Source of the DNA: Glycomyces algeriensis
GTDB taxonomy: Bacteria > Actinomycetota > Actinomycetes > Mycobacteriales > Micromonosporaceae
Direction: 5' to 3'
NCBI RefSeq assembly: GCF_027622855.1
Contig: NZ_JAPZVR010000003.1
Span: 1 to 64,000, forward strand
DNA length: 64,000 nucleotides
The translations under genes were made by a program, and so were the position numbers. Each line of letters begins with the position of its first letter. Positions within the stretch are counted from its first letter, which is position 1. Shown here one piece after another: positions 24,319 to 27,538 of this stretch. A model generated the notes under the pieces. The model saw nothing but the letters and a program-made list of their open reading frames with translations, was not told the DNA's origin and did no database searches.

Positions 24319-25959
24319 TCAGGCGAGGATCGTGCCGGCGTCCATCTCCAGGTGGCGGCCTTGGAAGGACTCGCGGAGGCGGCGGTCGTGGCTGACCAGG
24401 ACCACCGTTCCCGCATAGCCCCGCAGCGCCTCCTGCAACTGCTCGGCCAGCAGCGGCGACAGGTGGTTGGTCGGCTCGTCCAAGAGCAGGACGTCGACCG
24501 GCCGCGACACGAGCCTGGCGAGTTCGAGGCGGCGGCGCTGGCCGACCGAGAGCGCCGACACCTGGGTGCCGAACTGGTCGTGGCCGAACAGGCCCAGCCG
24601 GTCGAGCGCCTCGGCGTGCTCTTCGAGCGTGCCGACGCGGCCTGCGGCGAAGGCCCGCAGGACCGACTGGCGGCCCGAGCCCGGGCCGGCGAGCTGGCGC
24701 AGGTGGCCGATCGCACCAGTGCGTTCGACCTCGCCTTGGTCGGGCTCGAGTTCACCGGCGAGGACCCGCATCAACGTGGTCTTGCCCGCGCCGTTCGGAC
24801 CGGTGATGAGGATCCGCTCGCCCCGGGCGATCGTCAGCTCGTCCACCTTGAGCCGGTCGGCCACGCGGATGTCCTTCAGCGCCAAGGCGGTGGCCTTGGT
24901 GTCCGCGCCGGTGGTCTCCAGGCCCGACTCGAACCGCATCGGCTCGGGCGGCCTCGGGACCGGGTGCTCCCGGAGCCGTTCGAGCATCTGCTTCGCGACC
25001 CTGATGCGGCTGCCCGCGCCGTGGTCGCGGTTGCGGGCCCGGAACGCGCCGGTGGACATGTTGGCCATCGGGAGCTTGCGCGGGATCGCGGCCATGCGGC
25101 CCGCGTTGTGGTCCACGATGCCTTCCTGGCGTTCGACTTCGGCGGTCCAGCGTTCGTAGGCCTCCTGCGCCTGCTGGCGTTCGGTCTCCTTTGCGACGAG
25201 GTACCCGGCGTACCCGTTGCCGTAGCGCCGGGCGCTGCGGTCGGCCACTTCGAGCATGGTGGTGGTGATGGCCTCCAGGAACGCCCGGTCGTGGGTCACG
25301 GCGACCACGGTGCCGGGCCAGTCGCGCAGTTGCGCTTCCAGCCAGGTCACGGCGTTGTCGTCGAGGTCGTTCGACGGTTCGTCGAGCAGCAGGAGCGCGG
25401 GCCTGGCCGCGAGGGTCGCGGCCAGCATGAGCCGCGACCGCTCGCCGCCCGAGAGCGTCCCCAAGGGACGGCCCCGGTCGAGGCCTGGCAGTCCGAGGAC
25501 CTCCAGTGCCCGATCGACGCGGAGGTCGGCGTCCCAGCCTTCGCGGGCTTCGAAGTGCGCCAGGAGATCGGCGTACCGCTCGCCCGCGGCTTCGTTGTCG
25601 TCGGCGAGCTCCCGTTCGGTCTCGCGCATCTGCCGCTCGATCTCGCGGAGGTCCGCGAGGGCGAGGTCGATGGCGTCGGCGACCGTGTCGTGCTCGGGCA
25701 GGTCGAGCTGCTGCGGCAGGTAGCCGATGCCTCCAGGGGAGGCGATCGTCAGTTCGCCGTTGTCGGGCGCCTCGCCCGCGCTGTCAGGCCTTGCGGCCGC
25801 GGCGATGAGCCTGAGCAGGGTGGACTTGCCGGAGCCGTTGTCGCCGATGATCCCGAGCTTCTCCCCCGGCTTGACGGTGAAGCTGACGCGGTCGAGGACG
25901 AGGTGGTCGGCGTAGCGCTTGGTGATGTCTACAAGGGTCAGTTGGGCATGGCGGAACAT
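24319..25959 (-). CDS. antibiotic-resistance-type ABC-F protein
   Basis: A 546-aa soluble ABC-F protein with two ATPase domains and no membrane segment. NBD1: Walker A GDNGSGKST, signature LSGGERSR, Walker B LLLLDEPSNDLD. The roughly 85-residue charged linker (KETERQQAQEAYERW to LERLREHP) is the arm that reaches the ribosome's peptidyl-transferase centre in resistance ABC-Fs. NBD2: GPNGAGKTT, LSVGQRRR, LLLDEPTNHLS. The long linker and the actinomycete context resemble macrolide/lincosamide self-resistance proteins such as TlrC, CarA and OleB. ATG 25959 has CTGGAGG 6 nt upstream; the apparent extension to 26007 lacks support. The leader encodes a five-residue peptide and an RNA stem that hides this ribosome site, pointing to drug-inducible translation. 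Drug range cannot be told. Confidence 0.9.
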   Translation of the reverse strand: MFRHAQLTLVDITKRYADHLVLDRVSFTVKPGEKLGIIGDNGSGKSTLLRLIAAAARPDSAGEAPDNGELTIASPGGIGYLPQQLDLPEHDTVADAIDLALADLREIERQMRETERELADDNEAAGERYADLLAHFEAREGWDADLRVDRALEVLGLPGLDRGRPLGTLSGGERSRLMLAATLAARPALLLLDEPSNDLDDNAVTWLEAQLRDWPGTVVAVTHDRAFLEAITTTMLEVADRSARRYGNGYAGYLVAKETERQQAQEAYERWTAEVERQEGIVDHNAGRMAAIPRKLPMANMSTGAFRARNRDHGAGSRIRVAKQMLERLREHPVPRPPEPMRFESGLETTGADTKATALALKDIRVADRLKVDELTIARGERILITGPNGAGKTTLMRVLAGELEPDQGEVERTGAIGHLRQLAGPGSGRQSVLRAFAAGRVGTLEEHAEALDRLGLFGHDQFGTQVSALSVGQRRRLELARLVSRPVDVLLLDEPTNHLSPLLAEQLQEALRGYAGTVVLVSHDRRLRESFQGRHLEMDAGTILA

Positions 25960-25964
25960 GCGCG

Positions 25965-26102
25965 CCTCCAGAAAGCAGTCGTTCGCGAGGGAGATGGTCG
26001 ACGGCACGCGGGAAGCGTTCAGGGCTTCGTGGAATGCGATGCGTGCCTCGGCGGCCGCCGCGGAGCACTGCTCTACGCGAAGGCCTGGCTGCTTTCTAAA
26101 GG
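25965..26102 (-). promoter_or_regulatory. translational attenuator: Shine-Dalgarno-sequestering stem of the ABC-F gene
   Basis: On the minus-strand transcript, CCUUUAGAAAGCAG (26102-26089) can pair with CUGCUUUCUGGAGG (25978-25965): 9 perfect pairs, two G-U, then U-A and two C-G. The 3' arm ends in the GGAGG that serves the ABC-F start. The 5' arm is the end of the leader ORF, including its last sense codon and stop. A ribosome stalled there would free the ribosome site. The pairing is seen; the switch is inferred from the erm/msr paradigm. Confidence 0.75.
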
Positions 26103-26113
26103 AAAATCAACAT
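26096..26113 (-). CDS. leader peptide MLIFL of the ABC-F gene
   Basis: ATG TTG ATT TTC CTT TAG encodes Met-Leu-Ile-Phe-Leu. It begins 8 nt after a consensus TATAAT, so the transcript is leaderless or nearly so and the ribosome would engage this codon first. Its final codons form the 5' arm of the stem that hides the downstream Shine-Dalgarno. The composition, a bulky second residue and Ile/Leu then hydrophobics, resembles short macrolide-responsive pentapeptides. Translation is not proven. Confidence 0.72.
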   Translation of the reverse strand: MLIFL

Positions 26114-26121
26114 CGTGCTCG

Positions 26122-26151
26122 ATTATAGCGGTGAATCGGAGTGCGTGTCCA
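26122..26151 (-). promoter_or_regulatory. promoter of the ABC-F leader and gene
   Basis: TGGACA (26151-26146), an 18-nt spacer and a perfect TATAAT (26127-26122) lie just after the M20-peptidase terminator. This is the closest match to the housekeeping consensus in the window. The predicted transcription start lies within 0-3 nt of the leader ATG. Confidence 0.82.
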
Positions 26152-26158
26152 GAATCTG

Positions 26159-26202
26159 ACGGGCCCTGGCGCGGTGAGGGTGCTCACCGCGCTAGGGCCC
26201 GT
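26159..26202. terminator. strong hairpin terminator
   Basis: A 20-bp stem with one mismatch-type position and a GGTG loop (arms ACGGGCCCTGGCGCGG... and its complement) separates the M20 peptidase gene from the ABC-F promoter. Confidence 0.8.
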
Positions 26203-26215
26203 TGGGTTCTCGCGA

Positions 26216-27538
26216 CTAGGACTGGGAGATGAAGCGGTCCATGACGTCGACGCCGAACTTGAGGCCGTCGAGCGGGACGCGCTCGTCGATGCCGTGGAAG
26301 AGGGCGGTGAAGTCGAGGTCGGCGGGGAGCTTGAGCGGCGCGAAGCCGAAGCAGCGGATGCCGAGGGTGGCGAAGGCCTTGGCGTCGGTGCCGCCCGAGA
26401 GCATGTACGGGACGGTGCGGGCGCCGGGGTCGGCCTGGCGGATCGCCTCGGCCATCGCGTCGACCAGCACGCCGTCGAAGGAGGTCTCGTAGCCGGGCTG
26501 GCGGATCTCGTACTCGAAGTCGATGCCCGGGCCGGCGAGCTCGCGCAGGATCGCCTCGAGCTCGTCGTTGCGGCCCGGCAGCGAGCGGCAGTCGATGACG
26601 GCGTCGGCGGTCGAGGGGATGACGTTGGTCTTGTAGCCGGCGTTGAGGCGGGTGGGGTTGGCCGTGTTGCGCAGGGTCGCGCCGATGAGGCGGGCGACCG
26701 GGCCGAGCTTGGCCACGGTCTCATCGGGGTTGTTCGGGTCGAACGCGATGCCGGTGAGCTCGGAGACCGATTCGAGGAACTGGCGCACCGTGGGGGTCAT
26801 CTCGACCGGGAACTCGTGCTGGCCGATGTTCGCGACGGCGCGCGTGAGGCGGGTGACGGCGTTGTCGTCGTGGAGCATCGAGCCGTGGCCGGGGCGGCCG
26901 GTGGCGCGCAGGCGGAGCCAGTCGAGGCCCTTCTCGGCGGTCTGGACCACGTAGACGCGCAGGTCGTTGGGGAGGGTCATGGAGAACCCGCCGACCTCGC
27001 CGACCGCTTCGGTGACGCCCTCGAAGACCTCGGGGTGCTCCTCGACCATGAAGCGGGCGCCGTAGTCGGAGCCGGCCTCTTCATCGGCGGTGAAGAGGAG
27101 GACGAGGTCGCGCGGGGGGACCTTGCCGCGGCGCTTCCAGTCGCGCACGAGCGCGATGAGCATGGCGTCGAAGTCCTTCATGTCGACCGCGCCGCGGCCG
27201 AAGAGGTACCCGTCCTTGATCTCGCCGGAGAAGGGGTGGACGGTCCACTCGTCGGGTTCGGCGGGGACGACGTCGAGGTGGCCGTGGAGGAGGAGGGCCC
27301 CGCGGGAGGAGTCGGCGCCGGGGTAGCGGCAGGCGACCGAGGCGCGGCCGGGCGCGGACTCGTAGATCTTCGGTTCGAGGCCGACCTCGGCGAGCATCGT
27401 GGCGACGTACTCGGCGGCGGCGCGCTCGCCCTTCGCGGTCGCGTTGTCGCCGGTGTTCGTGGTGTCGATGCGGATCAGATCGCGGGCGATGTCGACGACC
27501 TCGTCCTGCGGGCGGGGCTCTTTCGCGGTTTCAGCCAT
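26216..27538 (-). CDS. M20-family metallopeptidase (ArgE/DapE-like)
   Basis: A 440-aa two-zinc hydrolase of the M20 family, cytosolic. The metal and catalytic motifs are HGHLDVVP (His and Asp, about residue 88), GRGAVDMKD (bridging Asp), TADEEAGSDYGA (catalytic Glu pair) and the late HGIDER-type His (ALFHGIDERV). The dimerisation domain lies at about residues 195-330. Actinobacterial proteins of this type are often annotated as dipeptidases or acyl-amino-acid deacylases; substrate unknown. ATG 27538 (MAETAKEPRPQDEVVDIARDL) is family-like. It is followed by a long hairpin and preceded by the antiporter genes on the same strand, 102 bp away. Confidence 0.9.
   Translation of the reverse strand: MAETAKEPRPQDEVVDIARDLIRIDTTNTGDNATAKGERAAAEYVATMLAEVGLEPKIYESAPGRASVACRYPGADSSRGALLLHGHLDVVPAEPDEWTVHPFSGEIKDGYLFGRGAVDMKDFDAMLIALVRDWKRRGKVPPRDLVLLFTADEEAGSDYGARFMVEEHPEVFEGVTEAVGEVGGFSMTLPNDLRVYVVQTAEKGLDWLRLRATGRPGHGSMLHDDNAVTRLTRAVANIGQHEFPVEMTPTVRQFLESVSELTGIAFDPNNPDETVAKLGPVARLIGATLRNTANPTRLNAGYKTNVIPSTADAVIDCRSLPGRNDELEAILRELAGPGIDFEYEIRQPGYETSFDGVLVDAMAEAIRQADPGARTVPYMLSGGTDAKAFATLGIRCFGFAPLKLPADLDFTALFHGIDERVPLDGLKFGVDVMDRFISQS

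Follow-up and report, generated by a model that had tools for sequence, protein, structure and literature searches.

A predicted leaderless micro-uORF and a Shine-Dalgarno-sequestering helix as a likely attenuator of an ARE4-type ABC-F gene in Glycomyces algeriensis

In the window (the whole stretch of 64,000 nucleotides of the Glycomyces algeriensis contig NZ_JAPZVR010000003.1 that was analyzed), an ABC-F gene on the minus strand is preceded by a promoter, a mini-ORF encoding the peptide MLIFL, and an RNA helix that includes the Shine-Dalgarno (SD) sequence of the gene. This feature is real, it is conserved, and it stands ahead of the right kind of gene. The leader is likely an attenuator. 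On the basis of the sequence, we consider it probable that a leaderless uORF attenuates this ARE4-type ABC-F gene and senses stalled ribosomes, probably those stalled by macrolides at or near the stop codon. Macrolides and termination arrest may well be the signal.

The ABC-F gene (24,319..25,959, minus strand) encodes 546 amino acids and is closest to the TlrC/CarA/OleB/SrmB (ARE4) family. The general model of ribosomal-protection ABC-F proteins, NF000355, gave 402.7 bits for its product, above the cut-off of 380, and the earlier identification of the target as an ABC-F gene was thus confirmed. The best model was NF000171 (TlrC/CarA/OleB/SrmB) with 740.6 bits, under its cut-off of 800. Among the five leader-bearing relatives that were scored with NF000171, L041 (Actinomadura oligospora; 885.0) and L126 (936.8) passed this cut-off, and L149, L145, and L150 were under it. 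In addition, PMC10201436 describes TlrC and other ARE4 proteins as factors for macrolides/streptogramin B. For these reasons, we call the window gene ARE4-type.

The promoter consists of a -35 box, TGGACA (26,146..26,151, minus strand), and a -10 box, TATAAT (26,122..26,127, minus strand), with an 18-nt spacer. The boxes match 11 of the 12 consensus bases, and in the promoter scan they were the sole promoter-like site within 25,850-26,350, where 0.0 were expected. TGGAC was found at the equivalent site in 17 of the 19 same-genus leaders, and the -10 box lies 7-8 nt from the ATG in all 19. In the window, the gap between the -10 box and the mini-ORF (ATG TTG ATT TTC CTT TAG; 26,096..26,113, minus strand) is 8 nt. 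Given the usual spacing from a -10 box to the transcription start, the start is therefore predicted at about 26,116-26,113, i.e., about 0-3 nt 5′ of the mini-ORF ATG. The spacing in the window and in the same-genus leaders fits the leaderless uORF that the preliminary description had proposed, with the start being a predicted one. Directly upstream of the -35 box, there is a dyad (26,160-26,207) with the core GGTGAGCACCCTCACC (26,173-26,188). By visual inspection, most of the genus orthologues have a core resembling it, and the outer stem varies. This dyad is probably an operator or the terminator of the upstream gene (26,216-27,538, minus strand), whose 440-amino-acid product we take to resemble an M20-type peptidase.

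A close orthologue of the ABC-F gene is present in 20 of the 22 genus genomes, and the mini-ORF is kept by 19 of these 20 (the window included in both counts). The orthologue L020 (genome G019) has no promoter, uORF, or hairpin, and the end of the upstream gene and a dyad run directly into its SD. The genus pentapeptides are MLIFL (eight times) and MMIFL, and the hexapeptides are MLIFFL, MLIFFF, MLIFFS, MLIYFL (twice), MLIYFS, MLLYFL, MWLYLR, MWLYFI, and MWLYFR. The variable sites at codon positions 1, 2, and 3 numbered 1, 0, and 3 in the nine pentapeptide forms and 3, 3, and 3 in the ten hexapeptide forms. Thus, there is a synonymous signal in the pentapeptide group only. A hydrophobic/aromatic pattern is retained in the unpaired codons 2-4 of the genus mini-ORFs. 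Furthermore, a combined promoter-uORF pattern derived from the MLI forms occurred once per genome in 14 of the 22 genus genomes, each time at the ABC-F gene by coordinates, and the reversed pattern, used as a control, had 0 matches in the 22 genomes.

The end of the mini-ORF is also one arm of a helix, P1. The 5′ arm, CCUUUAGAAAGCAG (26,089..26,102, minus strand), overlaps the third position of codon 4 together with all of codon 5 and the stop codon. The 3′ arm, CUGCUUUCUGGAGG (25,965..25,978, minus strand), ends in the SD sequence GGAGG (25,969-25,965), 5 nt ahead of the ABC-F ATG (25,959). Separated by 110 nt, the two arms form an uninterrupted run of 14 pairs that includes two U-G pairs. 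RNAfold predicts this helix in the window (MFE -66.5 kcal/mol, z -2.59; 2 of 200 shuffles folded equally well), and none of 300 shuffled versions of the window 5′ arm matched the native pairing with the 3′ arm. Among the 20 leaders, shuffled 5′ arms paired equally well in 110 (L027), 28 (L024), 13 (L028), and 5 (L025) of 300 cases, and in at most 2 of 300 in the other 16 leaders. In 18 of 20 MFE folds, the uORF-end region pairs with at least four of the five SD bases, and within the genus, 17 of the 19 folds pair the SD with the end of the uORF; the MFE folds of L023 and L027 do not have the SD in P1. Meanwhile, RNAalifold on 19 leaders gave a three-way junction made of P1 closing on the SD arm, a P2 domain (26,053..26,085, minus strand) with outer GGCC/GGCC pairs surrounding a hairpin, and a P3 stem, GGCACGC/GCGUGCC (26,003..26,047, minus strand), which RNAfold predicts as well. 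For 7 of the 26 pairs in this alignment, one or more sequences had both partners changed.

The covariation of the arms was further examined by swapping them between leaders. In the 20 leaders (L028 included), the mean pairing energy was -20.2 kcal/mol for own arms and -18.0 kcal/mol for swapped arms, and 7 of 20,000 permutations reached the observed sum, a number inflated by relatedness. When near-duplicates were removed (13 rows, 4 from the genus), 22 of 50,000 permutations reached it. The test used 15 of 17 leaders, L041 and L149 being excluded by its SD rule; the genus alone (5 rows) gave 1272 of 50,000, and the leaders outside the genus alone (10 rows) gave 5393 of 50,000, a non-significant result that probably reflects how widely these leaders share the core CCUGU/ACAGG. 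Sequence and covariation together demonstrate the P1 helix. Thus, the SD-sequestering helix of the preliminary description held up, the covariation that it had asked for was found, and the orthologues, as a rule, keep both the mini-ORF and the pairing, whose loss it had named as contrary evidence.

To see how far the design extends, we used the upstream regions of 91 ABC-F genes, ranging from the orthologues of the window gene to genes with about 42% identity; these rows are not independent of one another. By our rule, a uORF of 3-11 codons had to lie at leaderless spacing, 6-9 nt behind a -10-like TANNNT hexamer. Such uORFs were found in 51 of the 91 upstreams (19 of 21 in the genus and 32 of 70 in others) vs 71 of 3640 shuffles (about 2%); the remaining 38 of the 70 upstreams outside the genus had no such uORF. 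When at least 60% hydrophobic residues were also required, 37 of the 91 (19 of 21 and 18 of 70) vs 4 of 3640 shuffles were left. As a control, other ABC-F genes were taken from a contig scan with 80 mostly unrelated ABC-F loci, of which only L041-L043 had >50% identity; of the remaining 77 loci, two had too little upstream sequence. Among these 75 genes, 9 followed the rule and 2 its hydrophobic version (0 of 25 among those with >60% GC). For the tiles of the window, the counts were 2 and 0 of 354. A chance origin was rejected by the shuffle, promoter-scan, and real-sequence controls.

Among the 32 distinct peptides of at least 5 residues found by the rule (MGTLV included in this tally), 24 have F and 5 have Y in the next-to-last position (29/32), and this position is F or Y in 33 of 38 once six hand-picked peptides are added. 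The shorter peptides MGSL, MGTL, MRLI, MIF, MLP, MES, and MSH mostly break this pattern, and several relatives carry MGSL, MGTL, or other 3-4-residue peptides only. On a tree of 62 proteins, the label of having both hairpin and uORF changed 8 times vs 20.9 times in shuffles; therefore, the two are clustered with the descent of the gene. The earlier claim of a five-residue leader is true of MLIFL in the window, but the design extends past five residues and past the genus.

The hairpin in P2, CGCGUAGAGC-AGU-GCUCCGCG (26,059..26,079, minus strand), is conserved in the genus and in relatives, and its consensus, GCGUNGAGC-loop-GCUCCGC, is nearly invariant within the genus. It is present in 31 of the 91 ABC-F upstreams. 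A strict pattern matched 29 of the 91 on the sense strand, 0 on the opposite strand, and 1 of 1820 shuffles; it misses the variant hairpins of L025, L135, and L152. A relaxed pattern gave 32 matches, of which L038 was judged spurious and excluded. In the 31 aligned leaders, 2 of the 8 hairpin pairs show changes on both sides. A second match to the hairpin pattern in the genome (L122) was rejected as chance, for it sits in a frame that by eye is phosphate-transport-ATPase-like. Rfam had 0 gathering-level matches in seven leader loci, and within 25,000-27,000 of the window it had nothing but sub-threshold miRNA matches, which lie upstream of the leader.

A covariance model was then built from the 31 leaders. 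In the genus, it found 19 of the 22 genomes at 40 bits or more, and the next match had 30. The model was also searched in 394 genomes of the class, with at most three candidates scored per genome, so the counts of this survey are lower bounds. The 14 best matches listed all precede ARE4-type genes, and two of them (L184 and L188) are outside the training set. L197 (32.4 bits), likewise outside this set, precedes an ARE4-type gene, and L192, L194, and L195 (32.1-36.6 bits) have no ABC-F frame downstream. Among at least 19 class-wide matches of 32 bits or more, 16 precede ARE4-type genes; a wider regulon was not seen at this sensitivity. Matches at E ≤ 0.05 in at least 253 of the 394 genomes were mostly weak; eight loci were inspected, and these matches were left unused. 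The best model for the genes of L184, L188, and L197 is NF000171, only over its first ~345-370 positions (565, 603, and 645 bits, respectively). L184 (genome G357) has a leader with MGSL and the hairpin, and then an ABC-F frame that ends at 394 amino acids; thus, at least this copy looks interrupted. The hairpin is conserved in sequence beyond what pairing needs, and it might therefore bind a protein or another ligand, with the mini-ORF merely marking the 5′ end of the RNA. We consider this very unlikely, since similar uORFs precede ABC-F genes that have no hairpin. For the same reason, the uORF has the wider distribution of the two.

The reading that we prefer can be described in steps. Judging from the spacing, transcription would begin on the ATG or no more than about 3 nt from it, and a ribosome would start MLIFL at the 5′ end without SD. 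When there is no drug, the ribosome would terminate and depart, the end of the mini-ORF would pair with the ribosome site of the ABC-F gene, and this OFF state would yield little ABC-F protein. In the presence of a drug that targets the ribosome (a macrolide or a streptogramin B being the likeliest), the ribosome would be held on or close to the stop codon and would cover the entire 5′ arm, and the ABC-F site would become available. Conservation and the published MsrDL structure suggest that the peptide may sense the drug via an MsrDL-like block of termination through its penultimate aromatic residue. The last codon joins the anti-SD pairing, and thus the last residue is partly an RNA constraint.

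The release of the SD was modeled at equilibrium by folding the GC-rich RNA with the ribosome footprint masked, on the assumption that the footprint extends to +15 from the codon in the P site. The mean unpaired SD over the 20 leaders was 0.06 in the free RNA, 0.31 with the P site on the AUG, and 0.16 with the P site at the stop codon (0.00, 0.05, and 0.01 in the window leader). Opening the region from the SD through the start codon cost 11.4, 8.7, and 10.0 kcal/mol in the free, AUG, and stop states, respectively, and a control block of equal size placed directly downstream left the cost at 11.2 kcal/mol; with P2/P3 kept folded, the mean opening cost was 10.0. The best mean stall position was codon 1 for the nine pentapeptide leaders and codon 2 for the ten hexapeptide leaders. 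Thus, the SD opens best in this model when the ribosome stalls early and not when it stalls at the stop codon. SD release by a stop-codon stall is weakly supported by the three static folding models, which favor an early over a stop stall, contrary to the peptide evidence.

These results bear on an alternative with the same architecture, in which the sensor is an early stall at the start codon or codon 2, of the kind caused by pleuromutilins, lincosamides, and streptogramin A. In that case, only the outer P1 would be covered, the inner P1 would hold the 3′ arm, and the SD would be exposed. The low opening cost with an early P site agrees with this alternative, and start-codon stalling is the published mode of the are5sc and tiaA uORFs (PMC12421871). 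However, it does not account for the conservation of aromatic/hydrophobic residues or for the F/Y in the next-to-last position, ARE4 proteins are described as factors for macrolides/streptogramin B (PMC10201436), and the fold model disregards the co-transcriptional order. We therefore regard an early stall as unlikely, though the least unlikely of the alternatives. Less likely again is transcription attenuation, intrinsic without a U-tract or Rho-dependent, in which the ribosome on the uORF would control termination in the leader and not SD access. This is the mode of msrD and of the actinomycete lmrC (PMC10314930, PMC8546547), but the SD itself is within the conserved helix, and there were 0 terminator-like sites in 25,850-26,350 by a scan that requires a T-run and would miss other kinds.

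Beyond the window, we are nearly evenly divided, leaning slightly against, on whether many actinomycete ARE4-type ABC-F genes are under leaderless micro-uORFs that encode a hydrophobic chain with a penultimate aromatic residue and undergo macrolide-dependent termination arrest, by a code independent of MsrDL, many of them with a new structured leader RNA whose anti-SD arm is directly occupied by the arrested ribosome. If true, this would explain how macrolide-making actinomycetes sense macrolides ahead of their own ribosome-protection genes.

Some other ABC-F upstreams have features of their own. Before ABC-F genes at 42-44% identity, L033, L035, and L037 have ATGTGA start-stop mini-ORFs, and L034 and L036 have the mini-ORFs MLS and MES. 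In L033-L037, a GACACC-like stretch can pair with GGTGTC directly before the main start, so these leaders are apparently analogous to, yet different from, that of the window. In L042 and L137 (Nocardiopsis endophytica and a relative), a variant uORF, MLIRGR, lies behind an SD-like AAGGAG, and its start region can pair with bases ahead of the main start. No leader was seen for L038, the second ABC-F gene of genome G015; its start codon is 7 nt behind a TATCCT box, and the gene itself may be leaderless. Meanwhile, AGACG-CGTCT-type palindromes were seen at the promoters of the ABC-F paralogues L129, L130, L123, L141, L142, L146, and others, some together with a uORF; they may reflect a TetR-type repressor as a second control.

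The preliminary description had likened MLIFL to pentapeptides related to macrolides, but the closest peptide that we found is instead MsrDL (MYLIFM), the leader of streptococcal msrD. With erythromycin, MsrDL is arrested at its stop codon, UAA. This arrest depends critically on L3 and I4 and requires cladinose macrolides, and F5 together with U2584/U2585 excludes RF1/RF2 (PMC10314930). Both leaders have a tiny uORF before a macrolide-protection ABC-F gene and the ending LIF-x-stop (PMC10314930), which is found in MLIFL of the window, MGSLIFL (Actinomadura), and MGTLIFQ, while other relatives vary. However, Msr is in ARE1 (PMC10201436), and the window gene is ARE4-type. In the published MsrDL construct, a ribosome binding site precedes the uORF, and the switch is an intrinsic terminator (PMC10314930). 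The window uORF is predicted to be leaderless, no such terminator was found in the scan of its leader, and this leader would act by SD sequestration. Thus, the window leader is not classed as an MsrDL-type attenuator and is only said to work like one. In addition, the genus peptides have 5-6 residues, and MLIFL is one residue shorter than MsrDL, whose Met1 occupies a crevice; this counts against an MsrDL-like arrest. We infer that the likeness is convergence, because the ABC-F subfamilies and the phyla differ.

Other ABC-F leaders share different parts of the design. The cplR uORF of Clostridioides, MR[I/M], also serves translational attenuation of an ABC-F gene, but it has three residues, its stall is thought to be little context-dependent, and it belongs to another subfamily and phylum (PMC10201436). 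The are5sc (MLV) and tiaA leaders of Streptomyces likewise have short uORFs before actinomycete ABC-F genes, and theirs were toeprinted with drugs; they differ in being ARE5, in stalling at the start codon with LSAP drugs but not with erythromycin, and in having a ribosome binding site and other peptides (PMC12421871). The preliminary description had seen the window leader as an unusually compact form, but even shorter ABC-F uORFs of three residues, MLV (PMC12421871) and MR[I/M] (PMC10201436), were already published. The attenuator of lmrC in Streptomyces lincolnensis is also an actinomycete ABC-F leader and is drug-responsive, but it uses a transcription terminator, and disruption of its key uORF gives constitutive expression (PMC8546547). 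In the available parts of the open-licence literature, there were leaders for ARE1, ARE2, ARE3, and ARE5 genes and none for ARE4, the subfamily closest to the window gene. No leaderless drug-sensing uORF was found in this literature (including PMC10219788, PMC4128351, and PMC13410324).

A leaderless sensor, if true, raises the question of drug sensing when initiation needs no SD pairing, and dozens of natural peptides of 4-10 residues would be a ready library on drug-bound stop-codon stalling. In translational attenuators of the ermC type, the SD is hidden until a ribosome stalls on the leader peptide, and the same would hold here. The ermC-type leaders differ in that they are longer, carry an SD of their own, and use a relay of alternating stems, whereas in the window leader the anti-SD arm itself would be occupied by the stalled ribosome.
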